From positions 1,206,501 through 1,270,500 of the forward strand of contig NZ_CP039457.1 of NCBI RefSeq assembly GCF_004843545.1: DNA of 64,000 bases, in the 5' to 3' direction. The notes beneath the pieces were generated by a model. The model saw nothing but the letters and a program-made list of their open reading frames with translations, did no database searches and had not been told where the DNA came from. This DNA comes from Streptococcus pasteurianus. Its GTDB lineage: Bacteria; Bacillota; Bacilli; Lactobacillales; Streptococcaceae. Shown here one piece after another: positions 17,486 to 63,350 of this stretch (the stretch's first letter is position 1; each line of letters begins with the position of its first letter). A program made the translations under genes and the position numbers.

Positions 17486-17733
17486 AAAAAGCTAGTATTT
17501 TTCTTGTATTCAAGATATTTTGCCATTACTTTGACGAATGAAATAAATAATTTTTTTGTAGAGCATTTTCACAACTTTATGGTAGAATTATCTTTGGACA
17601 TTTAGTCACTCAATTAATAATAATCACGAACTCAATATGCCATAAGACATTTGAGCTCATTATGAGTTAGCTAGGCAGGTACTCGTAAACATTGTAGTAT
17701 CAGGTGAGTTCAATCATTCAGAAAGGTTTATTC
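17486..17733 (+). promoter_or_regulatory. Divergent region between thyA and mvaS
   Basis: Towards mvaS there is an extended -10 box TATGGTAGAAT near 17580-17590, leaving a leader of about 140 nt. The leader has short inverted repeats such as TTGAGCTCATTATGAGTT (near 17652). I see no clear operator. The thyA side is AT-rich with no convincing -35/-10 pair. Confidence 0.35.
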
Positions 17734-18912
17734 ATGAAAATCGGTATTGATAAAATCGGGTTTGCGACATCACAATATATGCTAAACATGGATGATTTAG
17801 CTGAAAGTCGTCAAGTTGACCCTGAAAAGTACAGCAAAGGTTTGCTGTTAAGAACGCTTAGTATTGCACCTGTCAATGATGACATTGTAACTCTTGGTGC
17901 TTCTGCTGCTGACAGCATTCTTACTAATGATGACAAAGAAGCCATTGATATGGTTATCGTTGCGACAGAATCATCTGTTGACCAAAGTAAAGCGGCAGCA
18001 ACTTGTATTCACAACCTTTTGGGAATTCAACCTTTTGCACGTAGTATCGAGATGAAAGAAGCTTGTTACAGTGCGACAGCAGCGCTTGATTACGCTCGCT
18101 TACACGTTGAAAAACACCCAGAATCAAAAGTCCTCGTTATTGCTTCTGACATTGCTCGTTACGGAGCCCACACTTCAGGGGAACCAACGCAAGGTGCTGG
18201 TAGCATTGCCATGCTTATCTCACAAGACCCACAAATTTTACTCTTAAATGATAATTTCGTTGCTCAAACACGCGACATTATGGACTTCTGGCGTCCTAAT
18301 TATTCAACAACGCCTTACGTCAATGGTATTTATTCAACCAAACAATACCTTGATATGTTGAAAACGACATGGGCAGAATTTCAAAAACGCTTTAATACAT
18401 CACTTTCTGATTTTTCAGCTTTCTGTTTCCACTTACCATTTCCAAAATTAGCCCTTAAAGGCTTTAATAAAATTATGGATAAAACATTGCCAGCTGATTT
18501 GCAAGGAAAACTTAAAGCTAACTTTGAAAGTTCTATCCTTTATAGTAAACAAGTCGGAAATATATACACTGGTTCACTCTTCCTTGGACTCCTTTCACTT
18601 CTTGAAAATAGTGAAAACTTGGTAGGCGGTGACAATATCGCTTTCTTCAGCTATGGAAGTGGCGCAGTTGCTGAAATTTTCACTGGAACATTGGTTGAAG
18701 GTTTCAAAGACAAACTTAAAAATAGCCGACTTCAAGAACTCAAACAACGTATTGCTCTTTCTGTTGAAGATTACGAAAGAATCTTCTTTGAAGAACCTGT
18801 TTTAGATGCTGACGGTAATGCTTCTTTTGCAAATTACAAAACTGGAACATTTGCCCTCAAAGAAATTCGTGGACACGAAAGAATTTATGGAAAAACAAAC
18901 GAAATCGACTAA
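17734..18912 (+). CDS. mvaS: Hydroxymethylglutaryl-CoA synthase
   Basis: 392 aa thiolase-fold enzyme that condenses acetyl-CoA and acetoacetyl-CoA, the first committed step of the mevalonate pathway. Catalytic residues are visible: Glu in VIVATESSVDQSK (about residue 79), Cys in EMKEACYSATAAL (about 111), and His in FCFHLPFPKLALKG (about 233). Start at 17734 is supported by AAAGG eight bases upstream; an in-frame GTG at 17704 is not favoured. It overlaps mvaA by 26 bp. Confidence 0.97.
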   Translation: MKIGIDKIGFATSQYMLNMDDLAESRQVDPEKYSKGLLLRTLSIAPVNDDIVTLGASAADSILTNDDKEAIDMVIVATESSVDQSKAAATCIHNLLGIQPFARSIEMKEACYSATAALDYARLHVEKHPESKVLVIASDIARYGAHTSGEPTQGAGSIAMLISQDPQILLLNDNFVAQTRDIMDFWRPNYSTTPYVNGIYSTKQYLDMLKTTWAEFQKRFNTSLSDFSAFCFHLPFPKLALKGFNKIMDKTLPADLQGKLKANFESSILYSKQVGNIYTGSLFLGLLSLLENSENLVGGDNIAFFSYGSGAVAEIFTGTLVEGFKDKLKNSRLQELKQRIALSVEDYERIFFEEPVLDADGNASFANYKTGTFALKEIRGHERIYGKTNEID

Positions 18913-20170
18913 AGTTAACTGGAGTGGATTCTCCAAAAAAGCAATAACTGAACGTCTTGAACATTTGGAAAATAATCGTCTTTTAAGCACTGAAACGCTT
19001 AATGACTTAAAAGAAAATACCTTGCTATCGCTTGAAACAGCCAATCAGCTAACAGAGAATGTTTTGGGAACTTTCTCTTTGCCGTTTTCAGTTGCTCCTG
19101 ATTTTCAGGTTGATGGTGCTACTTTCAACGTTCCAATGGTAACTGAAGAACCTTCAGTGGTGGCGGCGGCTAGTTTTGCAGCTAAAATCATCAAACGTTC
19201 AGGTGGTTTTAAGACCAAAGTTCATTCTCGAAAAATGATTGGTCAAGTTGCCCTTTATGATGTGGTAGACAAAGCTATCGCAAAAGAAACTATCTTGAAT
19301 CATTCTGCGCAGCTATTGACCTTAGCCAATGAAGCTCACCCTTCTATCGTAAAACGTGGTGGCGGCGCTAGAGAATTGACTGTGGAAGAAAAAGATGAGT
19401 TTCTGATTGTTTACTTGACGGTTGATACACAAGAAGCTATGGGAGCCAATATGGTCAACACCATGATGGAGGCTTTAGTGCCTAGTTTGGAAGAACTTTC
19501 TGGCGGAAAAAGTCTAATGGCAATTCTTTCAAACTATGCAACGCAGGCGCTGGTTACCACCGAATGTCAAGTTGACCTTCGCTACCTCAGCCGCAACAAA
19601 ACAGAAGCCCAAGCATTAGCAAGTAAATTCCAACTGGCAAGCAAACTTGCTCAAGTTGATGTTTATCGTGCTACCACACATAATAAAGGGATTTTTAATG
19701 GTATAGATGCCGTTGTCTTGGCAACTGGAAATGACTGGCGAGCTATCGAAGCAGGCGCTAACGCCTATGCTTGCAAAGACGGACAATACCGTGGTTTAGC
19801 AACTTGGTCATTTGATAAAGAGCAACAAGTACTTCGCGGTCAATTAACGCTCCCAATGCCAATCGCAACACGCGGTGGTTCTATCGGACTTAACCCAACC
19901 GTTAAAATCGTTCACGAACTATTAGGGCATCCAGATGCACAAACACTTGCAAAAATCATTGTTTCTGTTGGGCTAGCACAAAATTTCGCTGCCGTGAAAG
20001 CCTTGACTTCTACTGGTATTCAGGCAGGACACATGAAATTGCAAGCCAAATCATTAGCACTTCTTGCTGGTGCCACTGAAAACGAAGTTGGCAAAGTGGT
20101 TCAACAACTCTTGCAAGCACCACATATGAATTTAGAAACTGCCAAAACAATTCTAAAAAATCTGAAATAG
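18887..20170 (+). CDS. mvaA: Hydroxymethylglutaryl-CoA reductase, class II
   Basis: 427 aa, reduces HMG-CoA to mevalonate. Motifs are ENVLGTFSLPFSVAPDF (substrate), EAMGANMVNTMME (dinucleotide; the class II DAMG motif with Glu), LATGNDWRAIEAGANAYA, and the flap His in GHMKLQAKSLALLAG near the C-terminus. Start MEKQTKSTKVNWSGFS at 18887 lies inside the end of mvaS in another frame; the Shine-Dalgarno is weak, suggesting translational coupling. A strong terminator follows directly. Confidence 0.97.
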   Translation: MEKQTKSTKVNWSGFSKKAITERLEHLENNRLLSTETLNDLKENTLLSLETANQLTENVLGTFSLPFSVAPDFQVDGATFNVPMVTEEPSVVAAASFAAKIIKRSGGFKTKVHSRKMIGQVALYDVVDKAIAKETILNHSAQLLTLANEAHPSIVKRGGGARELTVEEKDEFLIVYLTVDTQEAMGANMVNTMMEALVPSLEELSGGKSLMAILSNYATQALVTTECQVDLRYLSRNKTEAQALASKFQLASKLAQVDVYRATTHNKGIFNGIDAVVLATGNDWRAIEAGANAYACKDGQYRGLATWSFDKEQQVLRGQLTLPMPIATRGGSIGLNPTVKIVHELLGHPDAQTLAKIIVSVGLAQNFAAVKALTSTGIQAGHMKLQAKSLALLAGATENEVGKVVQQLLQAPHMNLETAKTILKNLK

Positions 20171-21454: not shown

Positions 21455-22480
<1,026 letters not shown>

Positions 22481-22515
22481 TTACCTCAATCCAAATTGGT
22501 CTGACTAAACTTAAT

Positions 22516-23523
22516 TTATCTTTCATCACTTAATCTTTCTTGATATAGTATTTCAATACCAGCTTTCTGCCAACGTTGGGCGAGTTCGTGGCTGTCGCTT
22601 TCTGAGAATGATATTGCAATACCACAGTCGCCTCCGCCTGAGCCAGATGATTTTGCAATGACATCTAAACCTTTTTCAGCAGATTTCAACGCCTTTAACT
22701 TGTCGTTGTAAATAGCTGAGCTTAAACCGAGCAACAAATCACTAACTTTTTGCAGGCTTGCCTTAACAGCCATCTTATCACCTGTTTGAAGGGCTTGCTT
22801 ACAGATTTGAACATTTCTTTCTGTATCCTCAAGAAATGCTCTTGTAATGGCCGATTTGACTAAATTAATCATATCTTTTGAAATGGACGGTTGTTTTGTC
22901 CAGCCTACCAAGAAGTCACATAGTAACGCAGGTTTGATGATTTCGATACGATAGCCCCAGTCTTTAGCAAGTACAGTTTTGATGTCTTCTGTTGCAATCC
23001 ACGTTGACACTTTTTGACGGTCAAAAGAGGTGAAAGCCACCAAATCATCGTAAGCAATACAAGCTATGTCGCCCATAGAACCATTGTCCCCCAGTTTTAA
23101 AAGCGTATAGGAAGCAAGCTTGAAAATGGTATCCGCTGATAACTTTAGCTCATAAAATGCGGACAAGGCTTTGAGCGTTAACACCGTCACTGAACCACTT
23201 GACCCAATGCCAAATTTCTTACCGTCACGCTCTAACTTTCCAGTAATATCGAGTTTAAATGCTGGTAAATCATGCAAAGATTTGTCAAGGTAAGTAGCCA
23301 GAGTGACAATGGTTTGCTGAATGAGCGCATAATTCTTATCCGCTGTCATATCAGTAGCGTAGTCAAACATATCTGAAAAAAGGGAAATTTTTTCGGCTTC
23401 TTTGACTATCGCTGTCATAGGAATGGGAATATTTTTCAAAATAGCAGTTTGCCCAGGGGTTAGTATGGCATATTCGCCTGCAATATAGAGCTTTCCACCT
23501 GTCTGCACACTAATCGTTTTCAT
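22516..23523 (-). CDS. mvaK2: Phosphomevalonate kinase
   Basis: 335 aa GHMP kinase that forms mevalonate 5-diphosphate. GKLYIAGEYAIL at the N-terminus, the nucleotide loop KKFGIGSSGSVTVLTLKALS near residue 105, and the C-terminal SSGSGGGDCGIAISF motif identify it. The start at 23523 (MKTISVQTGG) follows AAGGTG eight bases upstream; it overlaps the end of mvaD by 14 bp, which argues against the longer in-frame start at 23550. Confidence 0.96.
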   Translation of the reverse strand: MKTISVQTGGKLYIAGEYAILTPGQTAILKNIPIPMTAIVKEAEKISLFSDMFDYATDMTADKNYALIQQTIVTLATYLDKSLHDLPAFKLDITGKLERDGKKFGIGSSGSVTVLTLKALSAFYELKLSADTIFKLASYTLLKLGDNGSMGDIACIAYDDLVAFTSFDRQKVSTWIATEDIKTVLAKDWGYRIEIIKPALLCDFLVGWTKQPSISKDMINLVKSAITRAFLEDTERNVQICKQALQTGDKMAVKASLQKVSDLLLGLSSAIYNDKLKALKSAEKGLDVIAKSSGSGGGDCGIAISFSESDSHELAQRWQKAGIEILYQERLSDER

Positions 23524-24460
23524 CTGGTAACACCTTAGTACGTGATGCAATCACACGATAGTTTTCTTCAAAACGTTTTGTTAAGCGCTCTAAATCTTCT
23601 TCCAAACAAAGAACTTTAACATTTGGACCTGCATCCATTGTGAAATAGCATTTTTCACCTTGAGCGCGCAACGATTTAACAAAATCCATAGCTGTATAGG
23701 TCTCATTTGTCAAATAATTGAATGGTGGATTAGCGTGTGTATTAGTATCGTGCATGGCAAGTGCATTGCGTTCTGTCAATTCTCCAACTTTTTCAAAATC
23801 ATTGGCTTCCAAATAAGCAAGCATATCCTTATAATCTTGCTCAGATTGTTTAACCCAATCCGCAAAAGTTGTTGACGTTTCAGCACAGCGTTTCATGCCT
23901 TCACGACTAGAAATTGGTTTCTTGCTATCGCTTAAAACAAGCATAATCATTGCTAATTTGAGATTGGTTTGCACTGGATAAATATCTCCGCTGTCTTTAT
24001 CCCACGCAGCAATCGGTCCAAAGAATGAACGTGATGATGAGCCTGAAGCAAATTTGGCTTTTTGTGCCAACTCTGATTGATTTAAGCCAGTTTCGAAAAG
24101 TTCATTACAAGCCTTTACAAGCGCTGAAAGTCCACTTGAACTTGATGATAAACCTGCAGCGGTTGGCATGTTATTGCTAGTTTCAACTTTGACAAATTCG
24201 GAACGTCCACCACGGTATTGGTCGATAATGGCAGAAATTTTTGCGTGTTCTTTTTCATCTTGCAAGACACCATTGATGTAAAATTCATCATGACCAACCG
24301 ATTGTGGTAAAAAAGAAACAGTTGTTGTGGTAAACATATTTTCCAGAGTCAAAGAAATACTGCTAGTTGCTGGAATCATCTTGACAGCATCAGCTTTCCC
24401 CCAGTATTTGATAATAGCAATGTTGGCATATGATTTTACCGTTACAATTTTTCGATCCAC
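23510..24460 (-). CDS. mvaD: Diphosphomevalonate decarboxylase
   Basis: 316 aa GHMP-fold enzyme that makes IPP with ATP-dependent decarboxylation. VKSYANIAIIKYWGKAD, PATSSISLTLENM, the loop MPTAAGLSSSSSGLSALVKA (about residue 98), and the catalytic Asp in YFTMDAGPNVKVL are the family marks. It overlaps mvaK1 by 19 bp and mvaK2 by 14 bp, a tightly coupled operon. Confidence 0.97.
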   Translation of the reverse strand: MDRKIVTVKSYANIAIIKYWGKADAVKMIPATSSISLTLENMFTTTTVSFLPQSVGHDEFYINGVLQDEKEHAKISAIIDQYRGGRSEFVKVETSNNMPTAAGLSSSSSGLSALVKACNELFETGLNQSELAQKAKFASGSSSRSFFGPIAAWDKDSGDIYPVQTNLKLAMIMLVLSDSKKPISSREGMKRCAETSTTFADWVKQSEQDYKDMLAYLEANDFEKVGELTERNALAMHDTNTHANPPFNYLTNETYTAMDFVKSLRAQGEKCYFTMDAGPNVKVLCLEEDLERLTKRFEENYRVIASRTKVLPDEND

Positions 24461-25320
24461 GTTTGAACCGCTCCTCCTTCTTTTAATGCGTTACTTATTT
24501 TTTCTGCGTCAGCTTTGGTACTTGCAAGGGCAATAATACAGCCTCCAAGTCCGCCGCCACTCATCTTGGCTCCAAGGGCACCATTTCCCAAAGAAAGCTT
24601 AACCAGTTGGTCGGAAACGTCAATGCTGACACCAATAGCTTGTAAATGAGCGTGTGCTTTGGTCATCATGTGACCAATTTTTTGAATATCTTTGTCTTGA
24701 ATAGCTTTTTGAACAATTTCGGTTAAGTCGCCAAGGGCTGCTAGATGTGGTAAATTGGCCTCTTCTGCCTGTGCAACCTTCTCAACAGCTTCACGCGTAT
24801 TACCATAAATTCCTGTATCTGCAATAACCAAATAAGCATCCAAATCTAAATCAAGGGTACTAAAACCGATGTTACGAATAAAAGTAATGGCTTTATCACT
24901 CAAACAAGTCTTGGCATCAAGCCCACTTGGATTTGAATGTGCAATAATCTCTGCTTTATTCACCAAAATTTCCAGAGTATTCATATCAATGCTTTGCTCA
25001 AAATAATCAAAAACAGCACGGATAGCTGCGATAGAAACCGCTGCTGATGACCCCATGCCACGTTTTTGTGGAATTTCAGAACGAATCGCATAGGTAATGG
25101 AAACATCTGTGTGATTTAGGTACTCTAACGCCGCATAAACGGCAGTTGATAACGTATCATAAAAATCAAAGTGAATCTTTTCTTCAGCTGGATAAATATG
25201 ACATTCAACCTTAATTCCTTGAAGCGGAATCGCAATGGCAGGATAACCATAAACAACGGAATGTTCACCCATCCAAATAATCTTACTATGCGCCTTACCG
25301 ACGCCAATTTTCTTAGTCAT
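24442..25320 (-). CDS. mvaK1: Mevalonate kinase
   Basis: 292 aa GHMP kinase that phosphorylates mevalonate. GKAHSKIIWMGEHSVVYGYP, the phosphate loop EIPQKRGMGSSAAVSIAAI (about residue 85) and KMSGGGLGGCIIALA near the C-terminus are visible. First gene of its operon. In streptococci this enzyme is often feedback inhibited by diphosphomevalonate; nothing in the sequence here contradicts that. Purine-rich AGAGAAGAG precedes the ATG. Confidence 0.97.
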   Translation of the reverse strand: MTKKIGVGKAHSKIIWMGEHSVVYGYPAIAIPLQGIKVECHIYPAEEKIHFDFYDTLSTAVYAALEYLNHTDVSITYAIRSEIPQKRGMGSSAAVSIAAIRAVFDYFEQSIDMNTLEILVNKAEIIAHSNPSGLDAKTCLSDKAITFIRNIGFSTLDLDLDAYLVIADTGIYGNTREAVEKVAQAEEANLPHLAALGDLTEIVQKAIQDKDIQKIGHMMTKAHAHLQAIGVSIDVSDQLVKLSLGNGALGAKMSGGGLGGCIIALASTKADAEKISNALKEGGAVQTWIEKL

Positions 25321-59363: not shown

Positions 59364-61127
59364 TTATTCTGCCAAATTTTTTAAAACGTTGTTAACGATA
59401 TTTTCGACAGTAATGCCATTTTCTGCTAACAATTCTTGCGCATTGTAGCGGTCATGGAAGGCTTTTTCAACACCGTAATTTTGGACTTTAACTTCCGTAT
59501 CACCAAGGTAACTTGCAATCATTTGACCGTAGCCACCTTCTAAAATACCGTCTTCCAAAGTAACCACGACTTGGTGCTCAGCTTCTAAACTATCAAGCAA
59601 TTCTTCGTCCAATCCTGTGATGAATTTTGGATTAACAATTGTCGCTGTAATACCATGTTTGTCAGCCAGTTCTTTAGCAACTTCCTCTGCCAATCCGTAG
59701 AAATTACCAAGACCAAAGAGCGCTACTTGACTACCTTTTTGAGTCACTTGGTTCTTATTAAGAATCGAGTAATCCGTTGTGTCTGCAATACCAGTTTCAC
59801 GAAGTGGACCAACTGGGATGCGGATAGCTACTGGGTGTTCTTTTTGCTCAATTGCCCAATCAAGCATGGCAAGATGTTCTTCCTTACTTGTTGGTGCCAT
59901 GTAAACCACGTTTGGAATGTGAGCTAAGAATGGAATATCAAAGAAACCGAGGTGACTTTCGTCGTTCAAAGAGCTAACAGACGCCATGTAAACAAGAGCT
60001 GTTACTGGCAAATTATTCAAAGCGATGTCATGTGACCATTGGTCATAAGTACGTTGCATAAATGTAGAGGCAACATACCAGACTGGTTTTGCACCGTTTT
60101 TAGCAAGCCCAGCTGACATTGTAGCTGCTTCTTCTTCAGCAATACCTACATCAACAAATTGTTTACCTGCTTGTTTGCGTTGGTCTTGGCTCAACATAAA
60201 CATTGGTGTTCCTGCATTGACGGCAACTACTGTTGAGTCATTTTTGATTTTATTTAAGACAAAATCTGTTGTAATGCTATTGTATGTTTCAGCAGCACCT
60301 GCACCACCAAGATATTCTCCTGTTTCAGGATTGTATGGTCCACCTGCATGGAAAGCTTCGCGATTTTCTTCCATGAATGACACACCGTATCCTTTTTGCG
60401 TATGAATGTGTAGCAAAACTGGGTGACTAGCGTCTTTGACTTCTTCAAATAAAGCAATCAATTGGTCGAGATCATTTCCTGCGTCAAGGTAATGATAATC
60501 AAAACCGAGAGCTTTAAAAAGATTATTATCAGCTTGACCGTTGCTTTCGCGTAAGTCACGAAGTGCTGTGTAAATACCGCCAGTTGGGTTAACAGCGATT
60601 GATTGGTCGTTATCGTTAATAACGACAATCGTATTTGTCCCTTCTGTTGCGATTTGGTTTAGCCCTTCATACGCCATACCACCTGAAAGAGAACCATCAC
60701 CAATAACCGCCACAACATTATAAGCTTCATCTTTCAAATCACGCGCTTTAGCCACACCAGAAGCAAGTGACAATGATGTTGACGTATGACCTACTGTGAA
60801 GAGGTCGTGTTCGCTTTCTTTAGGATTTGTGTAACCTGATACGTCATCATAATGCGCTGGGTCAAGAAAAGCTTGCGCACGCCCAGTCAACATTTTATGA
60901 ACGTATGATTGATGTGACACGTCAAAAATGAATTTATCTACTGGTGAATTAAAGACATAGTGCATAGCAACTGTCATTTCAACCATACCAAAGTTTGGTC
61001 CGTTGTGTCCACCATGTTGGCTTGTTTTTTCAAGAAGCGCTTGTCGTGCTTCATCACCAACACGGTGCAAATCTTCACGTGATAATTGTTTTAAATCTTG
61101 TGGTGATGAAATTGTTTCAAATACCAT
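59364..61127 (-). CDS. Orphan 1-deoxy-D-xylulose-5-phosphate synthase-like transketolase
   Basis: 587 aa thiamine-diphosphate enzyme, shorter than DXS of about 620 aa. TPP motif AVIGDGSLSGGMAYEGLNQ ... VVINDNDQSI (GDGS-N), substrate His in SQHGGHNGPNFG and FDVSHQSYVHKMLTGR, transketolase pyrimidine domain with FVDVGIAEEEAATMSAGLAK (catalytic Glu), and a C-terminal domain. The start at 61127 is set by AAGGAG. Mevalonate genes in the same window make an isoprenoid role unlikely; DXP could feed thiamine or pyridoxal synthesis, or the enzyme may have another substrate. Its promoter carries a MerR-type operator. Confidence 0.85.
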   Translation of the reverse strand: MVFETISSPQDLKQLSREDLHRVGDEARQALLEKTSQHGGHNGPNFGMVEMTVAMHYVFNSPVDKFIFDVSHQSYVHKMLTGRAQAFLDPAHYDDVSGYTNPKESEHDLFTVGHTSTSLSLASGVAKARDLKDEAYNVVAVIGDGSLSGGMAYEGLNQIATEGTNTIVVINDNDQSIAVNPTGGIYTALRDLRESNGQADNNLFKALGFDYHYLDAGNDLDQLIALFEEVKDASHPVLLHIHTQKGYGVSFMEENREAFHAGGPYNPETGEYLGGAGAAETYNSITTDFVLNKIKNDSTVVAVNAGTPMFMLSQDQRKQAGKQFVDVGIAEEEAATMSAGLAKNGAKPVWYVASTFMQRTYDQWSHDIALNNLPVTALVYMASVSSLNDESHLGFFDIPFLAHIPNVVYMAPTSKEEHLAMLDWAIEQKEHPVAIRIPVGPLRETGIADTTDYSILNKNQVTQKGSQVALFGLGNFYGLAEEVAKELADKHGITATIVNPKFITGLDEELLDSLEAEHQVVVTLEDGILEGGYGQMIASYLGDTEVKVQNYGVEKAFHDRYNAQELLAENGITVENIVNNVLKNLAE

Positions 61128-61243
61128 AAATTCTCCTTCTTTCATCTAAGAATCAATTGAAAAGTTTCATAACATTCTGTTCTCAAATTGATTTATATCT
61201 TCAAAAATTAGCTAAAAACTCACTAATTTTTGCAAGTAATGCT

Positions 61244-61274
61244 ATCATACACCATAGAGTGCACTCCAAGTCAA
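61244..61274 (-). promoter_or_regulatory. DXS-like gene promoter with MerR-type operator
   Basis: Minus strand -35 TTGACT (61269-61274) and -10 TATGAT (61244-61249) are 19 bp apart, the long spacing used by MerR-family activators. The spacer has an imperfect palindrome, CATAGAGTGCACTCCAAG (61253-61270; 7 of 9 arm positions pair). Confidence 0.82.
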
Positions 61275-61306
61275 ATACTTTTTTAATTTTTTTCAATAAT
61301 AATAAA

Positions 61307-61420
61307 CTAACTAATCAGACCGTTATCTGCCAACCAACTATTAATTGACGTTTCGCTTGATAAAATACGCCCCTTGACAGGATTTTTCAGCAAATTATCC
61401 ATTTCAATGTGGGCATCACT
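61307..61420 (-). pseudogene. Unidentified gene remnant after the aldo/keto reductase
   Basis: A 37-codon tail (SDAHIEMDNLLKNPVKGRIL, SSETSINSWLADNGLIS) follows an AAAGGAG site (61423-61429) but has no proper start in frame; the ATG near that site reads only ten codons. It looks like the C-terminal end of a deleted second operon gene. Family not recognised. Confidence 0.4.
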
Positions 61421-61463
61421 TTCTCCTTTCGCTTTGAACCGAAAGCAAAGCTTAAAAATCACC

Positions 61464-62450
61464 CTACAAAGCACCAACGATTTTATGTGGTAAATATTTT
61501 TCGTCCAAATAAGCCATATCGTCATCTGTCAAAGTCACGTCAAAAGCACCCATGAAATCATCTAAGTATTTTTCTTTTGTCACTCCAACAATCGGTGAGT
61601 CAATCCCTTTTTGCCATAGCCAAGCAAGAGCAACTTGAGCACGAGTAACACCGTATTTTTCTGCAACTTCTGCCACTCGCGCTACGATAGCCTTATCTTG
61701 TTCTTCAGTGCTATCGTATTTCATTTTGGCTGTTTCATCTGTCTTACTACGTGCAGTATCCGCATCCCAATCGCGCACCACGCGACCTGCTGCCAAAGGA
61801 CTATAAGGCGCTAAACCAACACCTGAATCTTTACAAAACGGAATCATTTCACGTTCGTCCTCACGATAAAGCATATTGTAATGATTTTGCATGACTGAAA
61901 ATTTTGTCCAACCATTTTTCTCAGCCACATACTGCGCTTTTTGGAACTGCCAAGCATACATTGCTGACGCACCAAGATAATGCACCTTACCAGAGCGCAC
62001 TAAATCATTAAGTGCAGACATAGTTTCTTCAATCGGTGTGTTATAATCCCAACGATGAATGTAAAGCACATCAATATAATCTGTTCCTAAACGTTTAAGA
62101 CTAGCTTCAACTTGGCTAAAAATTGCTTTTCGTGACAAACCAGTTGTATTTCGTCCCTCGTGTAAACCATCACCAAAGAAAACCTTAGTGGCAATAATCA
62201 CTTCATCACGGTCCGCAAAATCACGAATAGCACGACCAAGATATTCCTCACTTGTTCCTTTTCCGTAAACATTTGCTGTATCAAAAAAGTTAATACCCAA
62301 ATCTAAAGCTTTCTTAATGATGATACGTGATTTTTCTTCATCTAAAAGCCAACCAGAATGAAAACCAAGACTAGCATCACCAAAACTCATGCAACCAAGG
62401 CACAATTTTGACACTTCAAGACCTGTATTTCCAAATTTTGTGTATTCCAT
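61464..62450 (-). CDS. Aldo/keto reductase, YajO-type
   Basis: 328 aa. Asp and Tyr in FFDTANVYGKGTSEEYLGRA (about residues 52-57), Lys in VIIATKVFFGDG, His in VLYIHRWDYNTP. The long loops, LCLGCMSFGD at the start and MQNHYNMLYREDEREMIPFC, match the YajO/YccK-type group of AKRs. E. coli YajO has been linked to DXP formation from ribulose phosphate, which is notable beside a DXS homologue. GGAGG six bases before ATG. Its promoter has a perfect MerR-type palindrome. Confidence 0.92.
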   Translation of the reverse strand: MEYTKFGNTGLEVSKLCLGCMSFGDASLGFHSGWLLDEEKSRIIIKKALDLGINFFDTANVYGKGTSEEYLGRAIRDFADRDEVIIATKVFFGDGLHEGRNTTGLSRKAIFSQVEASLKRLGTDYIDVLYIHRWDYNTPIEETMSALNDLVRSGKVHYLGASAMYAWQFQKAQYVAEKNGWTKFSVMQNHYNMLYREDEREMIPFCKDSGVGLAPYSPLAAGRVVRDWDADTARSKTDETAKMKYDSTEEQDKAIVARVAEVAEKYGVTRAQVALAWLWQKGIDSPIVGVTKEKYLDDFMGAFDVTLTDDDMAYLDEKYLPHKIVGAL

Positions 62451-62491
62451 ACGAAACCTCCAAGATATTTCAATTTTTTCTGAACGCTTTC

Positions 62492-62522
62492 ATTGTACAC
62501 CTTAGAGTTAACTCTAAGTCAA
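62492..62522 (-). promoter_or_regulatory. YajO-type reductase promoter with MerR-type operator
   Basis: Minus strand -35 TTGACT (62517-62522), 19-bp spacer, -10 TACAAT (62492-62497). The spacer carries the perfect palindrome CTTAGAGTTAACTCTAAG (62501-62518), the form bound by NmlR/AdhR-type MerR proteins that sense aldehydes. Confidence 0.9.
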
Positions 62523-62585: not shown

Positions 62586-63350
62586 TTAAATTCGTTTTAA
62601 GTTAAAGGAAATCATGATAAGTGTCACAAGACAAGCAATTGCAATTAAAGCAAATGCGGATTGAAGCATCAAGAAACTTAAAAGCAATCCTAGTATTGGC
62701 ATACCAAATTCAACCCCATAAAGCCTATTGGTATTTTGATGACTTGATTTATTATTATGCTGATGTAAAAATGCATCAAACAGTAATATACCAAGATAAG
62801 AAGGTAAACTGAAAATAGTAGCTTGCACCATTTCCTATCACACGGTTTTGGCTGACATCCATCATGTGATCAATTTCAATAATATACACCATAAAAAGAT
62901 TGGTTACAATGATGAAAATTAAGAAAGAAGCCACAGACAAATTATCCACTGAAAAATACGGGGCTATGCCGATAATCATTTCACCAGAAGTGATAAGCCT
63001 CCAACCAAATGCAGAAAATTAATAGTGCACCTTTTCTATGAGACATGACCTTATTTGGGATTAAGTAAAATCCACATTAACAGCACACCATAAACCGGCA
63101 AAATCAGCCCGAACTGATAAGGTAAAAAATTGAAATAAACAAAGTCAGAGAACGTATTCCCAAAATATTGACAAATCAAACTACGGTCTGCTTCTGCTTT
63201 AGTATTGAAATACGCAATCACATATTGCAACAAAAGAAACAGAGAAATAAAAGCCATTGGTAAAATAAGTGGCACAAAATTCGTTGACCATTCTTCCGCA
63301 ATAAAATATTGGTTAAACTATTTTACCCAATTTGTACTTCATCGAAACTA
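62586..63350 (-). pseudogene. Degraded multi-pass membrane transporter (MFS-like)
   Basis: Hydrophobic pieces lie in different frames: MKYKLGKIV then a stop; FVPLILPMAFISLFLLLQYV to LPVYGVLLMWILLNPK then a stop; MSHRKGALLIFCIWLE; ASFLIFIIVTNLFMVYIIEI; GMPILGLLLSFLMLQSAFAL to the final stop. At least three frameshifts or stops are needed to join them. The MSHRKG loop after a helix is reminiscent of major facilitator motif A, but assignment is tentative. It lies upstream of the YajO-type gene on the same strand with its own terminator. Confidence 0.65.

Follow-up and report, generated by a model that had tools for sequence, protein, structure and literature searches.

A DXS-like enzyme behind an NmlR-type promoter in Streptococcus pasteurianus: a probable part in carbonyl defence and not in isoprenoid synthesis

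Why should a bacterium with the mevalonate route to isoprenoids carry a homologue of DXS, the synthase of 1-deoxy-D-xylulose 5-phosphate (DXP)? An orphan "dxs" gene in such a bacterium is taken as a remnant of the methylerythritol phosphate (MEP) pathway. The question is raised here by a stretch of 64,000 nucleotides of the Streptococcus pasteurianus genome (contig NZ_CP039457.1, positions 1,206,501 to 1,270,500), called the window below and numbered from its first letter, in which a DXS-like gene and the gene of a YajO-type aldo/keto reductase (AKR) each lie behind a promoter of the NmlR type. Our study suggests that both genes are part of a carbonyl/electrophile regulon of NmlR, a regulator of the MerR family, and that the DXS-like enzyme probably takes part in the removal of reactive carbonyls and not in isoprenoid synthesis. 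The probability of this explanation as a whole is put at about 0.5. The sites, the clade of the enzyme and its lost residues were read in the window itself; the regulator family and the result for dxr come from relatives, in which the genome-wide searches were run and of which the nearest (G001) shares 37% of sampled 31-mers with the window. The genes and sites in question are:

59364..61127, minus strand: DXS-like (DXPS-like subfamily) enzyme dependent on thiamine diphosphate (ThDP), 587 amino acids, assigned by profile search, residues and tree
61244..61274, minus strand: NmlR-type promoter of the DXS-like gene; -35 box TTGACT at 61269-61274, 19-bp spacer, -10 box TATGAT at 61244-61249, dyad at 61253-61270
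61464..62450, minus strand: YajO-type AKR, 328 amino acids, assigned by its identity to E. coli YajO
62492..62522, minus strand: NmlR-type promoter of the reductase; -35 box TTGACT at 62517-62522, 19-bp spacer, -10 box TACAAT at 62492-62497, dyad at 62501-62518

An earlier note, made from the sequence alone, had called a DXS homologue at 59364-61127, and the NCBIfam profile search agrees. The protein scores 831.7 bits on NF008968 (PRK12315), passing the cut-off of 510 for the DXPS-like subfamily, and 484.6 bits on TIGR00204 (dxs), just above the cut-off of 465.95. The start at 61127 given in that note is preferred over the mechanical open reading frame (ORF) start at 61145, because AAGAAGGAG stands directly 5′ of the ATG. 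The closest relatives are in S. gallolyticus BI02 (93%) and S. equinus/S. vicugnae (89-91%); identity to E. coli Dxs is 32%, and the structure model of the window protein has a predicted local distance difference test score (pLDDT) of 92. The subfamily is already known as such from NF008968 and from PDB entry 9kpq, by its title a ThDP-dependent enzyme of the DXPS-like subfamily and one of the closest known systems; no description of the function of the subfamily or of 9kpq, or of control by NmlR, was found in searches of the open-licence literature, and nothing to the point on DXS in these organisms stood among the papers listed. The reductase, also named as YajO-type in the earlier note, is 53% identical to E. 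coli YajO (from NC_000913.3) over 327 columns, its full length, and differs from it in standing behind an NmlR-type promoter.

The two promoters were found as they had been described, with TTGACT, a 19-bp spacer and a palindrome before each gene (TTGACT-N19-TATGAT and TTGACT-N19-TACAAT). Inside each spacer lies a CTTrGAGT-type dyad, imperfect in the DXS-like promoter (CTTGGAGTGCACTCTATG, 7 of 9 pairs) and perfect in that of the reductase (CTTAGAGTTAACTCTAAG, 9 of 9 pairs). The motif TTGACTTRGAGTNNACTCTA occurs twice in the 64 kb, both times without mismatch, where 0.12 matches are expected at up to three mismatches; two matches were reached in 1 of 100 shuffles. Among 118 Streptococcus genomes the motif is present in 52, and the reversed motif, used as a control, has no match in any of them. 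G001 has 10 sites, all 10 with a TA...T box at 19 bp, and none of the reversed pattern. A chance origin of the promoters was rejected on these figures and on the counts at other loci given below.

The same arrangement recurs at other DXS-like loci. The strict promoter test (-35 box, -10 box, 19-bp spacer and a dyad of at least 6 of 9 pairs) was applied to 73 loci including the window, four of which (L046, L056, L060 and L072) have no DXS ORF in the ORF set used and were left out of the counts. It was passed at 22 of 64 DXS-like loci, at 0 of 5 canonical DXS loci and at none in five shuffled sets. Within the 400 nucleotides upstream of the gene itself, the promoter stands before 17 of 64 DXS-like genes, as against 3 of 601 other genes, one of these being an AKR gene of the same cluster, and none of 10 canonical dxs genes from carrier genomes, for one of which the upstream sequence is limited to 324 nucleotides (Fisher p 6e-16, the loci not being independent). 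A fragment, L140, was left out of the canonical control and has no motif match either. When the spacer length was varied as a control, 15-18, 20 and 21 bp gave 0-3 loci and 19 bp gave 22; the 9 loci obtained at 22 bp are all 19-bp sites again, their -10 box being placed three bases downstream. Promoter-positive loci are those of Streptococcus, Enterococcus, Gemella and Listeria, the Clostridia L028 and L071 together with Elusimicrobium L026, a metagenome-assembled genome (MAG) of Selenomonadaceae (L063), and L069. They span more than one phylum and fall, in the DXS-like tree, into four clades that are well supported and lie apart from one another, with near misses at L031, L034, L013 and L038.

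Which regulator acts at these sites? MerR proteins of the NmlR/AdhR group had been named for them in the earlier note, and the relatives agree. In G001, the gene product L121 is an NmlR by the NCBIfam model (204 bits, cut-off 175), and its gene is located behind the same promoter type. At L028 and L071 the promoter is followed by a MerR gene, the DXS-like gene and then an FMN reductase or AKR gene; both MerR proteins score 140 bits on the NmlR model, below its cut-off, and L121 is closer to them (49% and 47%) than any other of the nine MerR gene products of G001 (runner-up 33-34%). The best NmlR relatives were taken from 20 of 27 genomes with a match, and 18 of these were also searched for the motif (all except G123 and G127). 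It lies 28-75 nucleotides before the start in 13 of the 18, 1.1-2.1 kb before it in G013, G126 and G132, and is not found in G122 and G130. Two pairs, G041/G121 and G044/G119, gave identical motif matches and were taken as the same genomes. Among 15 streptococci, namely 11 carriers of the DXS-like gene and 4 others chosen, motif sites occur in 9 of 9 with an NmlR orthologue (at least 56% identity) and in 1 of 6 without (Fisher p 0.002 among related genomes); 8 of the 11 carriers have the orthologue. AdhR/NmlR regulators have a known sensor cysteine, Cys52 of AdhR (PMC4776306). Its column holds C in 16 of 19 sequences of relatives, a cysteine shifted by one in 1, and Q in 2. The Q-bearing relatives are G140:C8:39747-40591 (L207) and G126:C11:77345-77713 (L210), and that of Listeria fleischmannii is one of a tandem pair whose other member has the cysteine. 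No MerR protein was found in two scans that covered part of the window's proteins, one of 10 small proteins and one of 5. Regulation of the DXS-like gene and the reductase by NmlR is well supported, and NmlR very probably controls both window genes.

The sites in G001 precede the DXS-like gene, a YajO-type AKR, a flavodoxin, gapN, a zinc alcohol dehydrogenase, an ABC transporter, a MATE transporter, a DUF3737 gene, a RibD-like reductase, and nmlR with another AKR, most of these names being readings of the sequences and not family searches. Similarly, YajO-type AKRs 59-64% identical to the G001 copy stand behind the motif in Enterococcus (G124, G126) and in Listeria fleischmannii (G140), on contigs other than that of the DXS-like gene. 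Judged by coordinates, the gene of the NmlR relative comes after this AKR gene in G126, and in G140 it is placed between the AKR gene and the motif. The pairing of DXS-like and YajO-type genes pointed out in the earlier note therefore recurs in three genera. The regulon of the relatives is rich in reductases, in keeping with the aldehyde- or redox-inducible regulon inferred in that note. The AdhR regulon of B. subtilis consists of adhA, yraC and yraA and is induced by methylglyoxal or formaldehyde (PMC4776306). The relatives resemble such NmlR/AdhR carbonyl-stress regulons in the NmlR-type regulator with Cys52, in the alcohol dehydrogenase of G001 and in carboxymuconolactone-decarboxylase neighbours at some loci, whereas the DXS-like ThDP enzyme and the YajO-type AKR are added in the present regulon. 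A gene read from its sequence as gapN stands behind an NmlR-type promoter at G001:C1:829262 (L074) and at G089:C33:22568 (L169); such a promoter would couple carbonyl stress to the NADPH-forming oxidation of glyceraldehyde 3-phosphate (GAP).

Does the enzyme serve isoprenoid synthesis? The mevalonate route that the earlier note saw in the window is confirmed for six genes, from HMG-CoA (3-hydroxy-3-methylglutaryl-CoA) synthase to isopentenyl-diphosphate isomerase (acetoacetyl-CoA thiolase was not looked for):

17704..20170, plus strand: mvaS and mvaA (HMG-CoA synthase and reductase), above NCBIfam cut-offs
21476..25320, minus strand: idi-2, pmk, mvaD and mvk (lower mevalonate route), above NCBIfam cut-offs

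A complete MEP pathway is not present in the streptococcal relatives, as neither dxr nor ispH was found in any of the 15 streptococci (the search took in these two genes but not ispD, E, F and G), in line with the statement of the earlier note that the enzyme is not for isoprenoids. Nor was dxr found in 10 Lactobacillales or Gemella carriers, two of which are apparently also among the 15 streptococci, as against 9 of 14 control genomes. Among 28 carrier genomes dxr is found in 16 and not in 12, the latter being these ten Lactobacillales or Gemella genomes and two MAGs of alphaproteobacteria. The DXS-like subfamily is not tied to the MEP pathway. An isoprenoid role was rejected for the tested streptococci, and the DXS-like enzyme is almost certainly without one. 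According to a 2026 review, the MEP pathway is incomplete in about 8% of Streptococcus species and in half of those of Enterococcus, for which a sensor of oxidative stress is suggested (PMC13001223). We infer that the incomplete pathways counted there are this DXS-like gene. In our sample the subfamily is carried by 11 of 118 streptococci; since dxr was found in 0 of these 11, their copies cannot reach 2-C-methyl-D-erythritol 2,4-cyclodiphosphate (MEcDP) by the known route.

What the enzyme has kept and lost as a DXS can be followed in 67 DXS-like rows (E. coli Dxs numbering; L072 left out of the counts). E370, R398 and H431 are kept in all 67, and H49, H80 and H122 in all 66 rows that reach them; the window counterparts of H49, H80, H122, E370 and H431 are H47, H78, H120, E337 and H398. 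The DXS fold and the ThDP catalytic residues are thus present, and in fold, ThDP motifs and H49, H80, E370, R398 and H431 the enzyme is like canonical E. coli Dxs. It departs from the latter at the GAP-binding positions R420 and R478, which are M387 and V445 in the window enzyme: no row has R at 420, none has R at 478 (K in 2), and D427 is kept in 2 of 67 and lost in 65. A further departure is that dxr was not found in tested mevalonate-type Bacilli carriers. In DXPS, R420 and R478 bind GAP, and R478A has a Km for GAP of 1400 μM (PMC11908136, PMC11019550). As judged from these residues, GAP is likely not the main acceptor. DXP or a related sugar phosphate as the product of the enzyme, proposed in the earlier note, is not supported, given the loss of both arginines throughout and of D427 in nearly all rows. 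In the tree, the 67 DXS-like rows are split from 16 canonical rows by a long branch with full support (100 in the Shimodaira-Hasegawa-like approximate likelihood ratio test, a quick method), and the window enzyme is not among the canonical DXS.

The lost arginines, the separate clade and the result for dxr and ispH in streptococci argue against the alternative of a genuine DXP synthase, which would bind GAP by other residues and make DXP for non-isoprenoid ends, such as a cofactor, a signal or a sugar phosphate, with the YajO-type enzyme as a second source. Another argument comes from the 16 dxr carriers, 11 of which hold a canonical dxs besides, full-length in 10 and in two pieces on two contigs in G140; G142 has a second DXS-related ORF of 702 amino acids, below the cut-off. 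This alternative is unlikely, yet it can draw on the score just over the TIGR00204 cut-off, on the kept ThDP residues and on the annotation of E. coli YajO as a DXP synthase. YajO is reported to give a low-efficiency route to DXP from ribulose 5-phosphate, its deletion lowering DXP by 6% (PMC12617950). The alternative also agrees with 4 of the 16 dxr carriers, in which canonical dxs is not among the matches listed: the metagenome bins G129, G134 and G145, and Atopobium minutum (G141). In the genus of the last (G141, G147, G148), dxs is above the cut-off in 0 of 3 genomes, one of which is also without a full-length DXS-like match; split transketolase-like pairs are the best other matches, and G141 has dxr. 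With a thiamine role in view, the Pfam ThiG model was tried as well. Its low cut-off (23 bits) was passed in all 15 streptococci, at no more than 37 bits and over part of the model, but the control gave matches in 14 of 14 genomes too, so that the model does not discriminate; the ThiG matches are read as cross-matches of other barrels.

The preferred explanation, a part of the enzyme in carbonyl defence, would proceed as follows. Reactive carbonyls would act on the cysteine of NmlR and so switch on the 19-bp-spacer promoters, activation being assumed from the NmlR/AdhR family. The DXS-like enzyme would activate pyruvate on ThDP, for which it keeps the residues, without the arginines for GAP. 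The acetyl unit of pyruvate would then most likely be transferred to small unphosphorylated aldehydes (methylglyoxal, glyoxal, formaldehyde or similar) to yield hydroxyketones; DXPS is known to accept other aldehydes besides GAP (PMC11908136). The hydroxyketones may in turn be reduced by the YajO-type and other co-regulated reductases, and the DXS-like enzyme would not feed isoprenoid synthesis. That it is a carbonyl-capturing carboligase is a tentative assignment, at somewhat less than even odds; if it is correct, a common annotation hides a stress enzyme. A wider proposal, more doubtful, is that the enzymes of the DXPS-like subfamily serve, in many bacteria and under induction by NmlR, to detoxify aldehydes by decarboxylative C-C bond formation, in which pyruvate is sacrificed, neither thiol nor NAD(P)H is used at capture, and co-induced YajO-type reductases finish the product. 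If true, this would be a principle of carbonyl detoxification different from glyoxalases, thiol-dependent dehydrogenases and reductases.

Alternatively, pyruvate could drive a reduction, with the ThDP carbanion oxidised by quinones, flavodoxin or other acceptors, and electrophiles removed by reduction instead of carboligation. Flavodoxin or FMN-reductase genes are recurrent neighbours, and the DXPS carbanion can pass electrons to O2 and trihydroxybenzaldoximes (PMC11908136). The window speaks against such a role, since it has lost the flavodoxin gene and kept the DXS-like enzyme. To our knowledge there is no docking partner for the DXS-like enzyme either, and this alternative appears distinctly unlikely. 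The loss is seen in comparison with G001, where an AKR gene is followed by those of a second AKR, an NmrA-like protein, a flavodoxin and the DXS-like enzyme. About 1.9 kb between reductase and DXS-like gene are deleted in the window, the two window-G001 alignments overlapping by 5 nucleotides at the junction (61413-61417), and both genes and both promoters have been kept through the deletion. What is left of the flavodoxin gene is:

61307..61417, minus strand: remnant of the 3′ end of a flavodoxin gene (its last 36 codons or so, with the stop), from the alignment to G001

A third possibility is that the enzyme works as a carboligase in the synthesis of 1-deoxy-ketoses or branched sugars, which would go into surface polymers or secondary metabolism. 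Genes for an IspD-like cytidylyltransferase and an NAD epimerase stand directly before the DXS-like gene in L049, and a glycosyltransferase gene follows it in L053 and L014. However, such neighbours were seen at isolated or deep-branching loci only, the NmlR-type promoter and redox neighbours go with many of the copies in Bacilli, and L014 itself passes the strict promoter test; this role is very unlikely. Genes of the same two clusters as in the L049 arrangement (L049:6239-8001, before a deep-branching DXS-like gene in a Clostridia MAG) are present in L053 too, and such a gene set may make an unusual nucleotide-activated deoxy sugar.

Several observations count against the proposed part in carbonyl defence. 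The column of R478 holds K in 2 of 5 canonical DXS rows, and the position of R99 is K in the DXPS of D. radiodurans (PMC11019550); these positions therefore tolerate some change, and the lost GAP-binding residues could be replaced by others. Some DXS-like copies stand in other contexts, such as that of L049. The strict promoter test was not passed at 42 of 64 DXS-like loci, the strict motif being absent, for example, at L008 of Limosilactobacillus gastricus, and the patchy promoter needs at least 12 gains or losses on the tree of the 64 loci. The motif is also present in 43 of 107 streptococci without the DXS-like gene, and therefore marks NmlR-type regulons in general. In the 11 streptococcal carriers, a site lies within 300 nucleotides of the gene in 7 and 5.6 kb upstream in G089, with none near in 3, and 3 of the 11 have no NmlR orthologue. 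Q replaces the sensor cysteine in one NmlR relative each of L. fleischmannii and E. casseliflavus. With the four dxr carriers described above, the enzyme may have a DXS role in a few lineages.

Upstream of the reductase, an 81-amino-acid ORF (window 62586-62831) has no Pfam match. Its counterpart, G001:C1:1418302-1419430, is a longer gene of membrane-protein-like character that is divided between two overlapping ORFs, and the two stretches therefore look like remnants of one gene.

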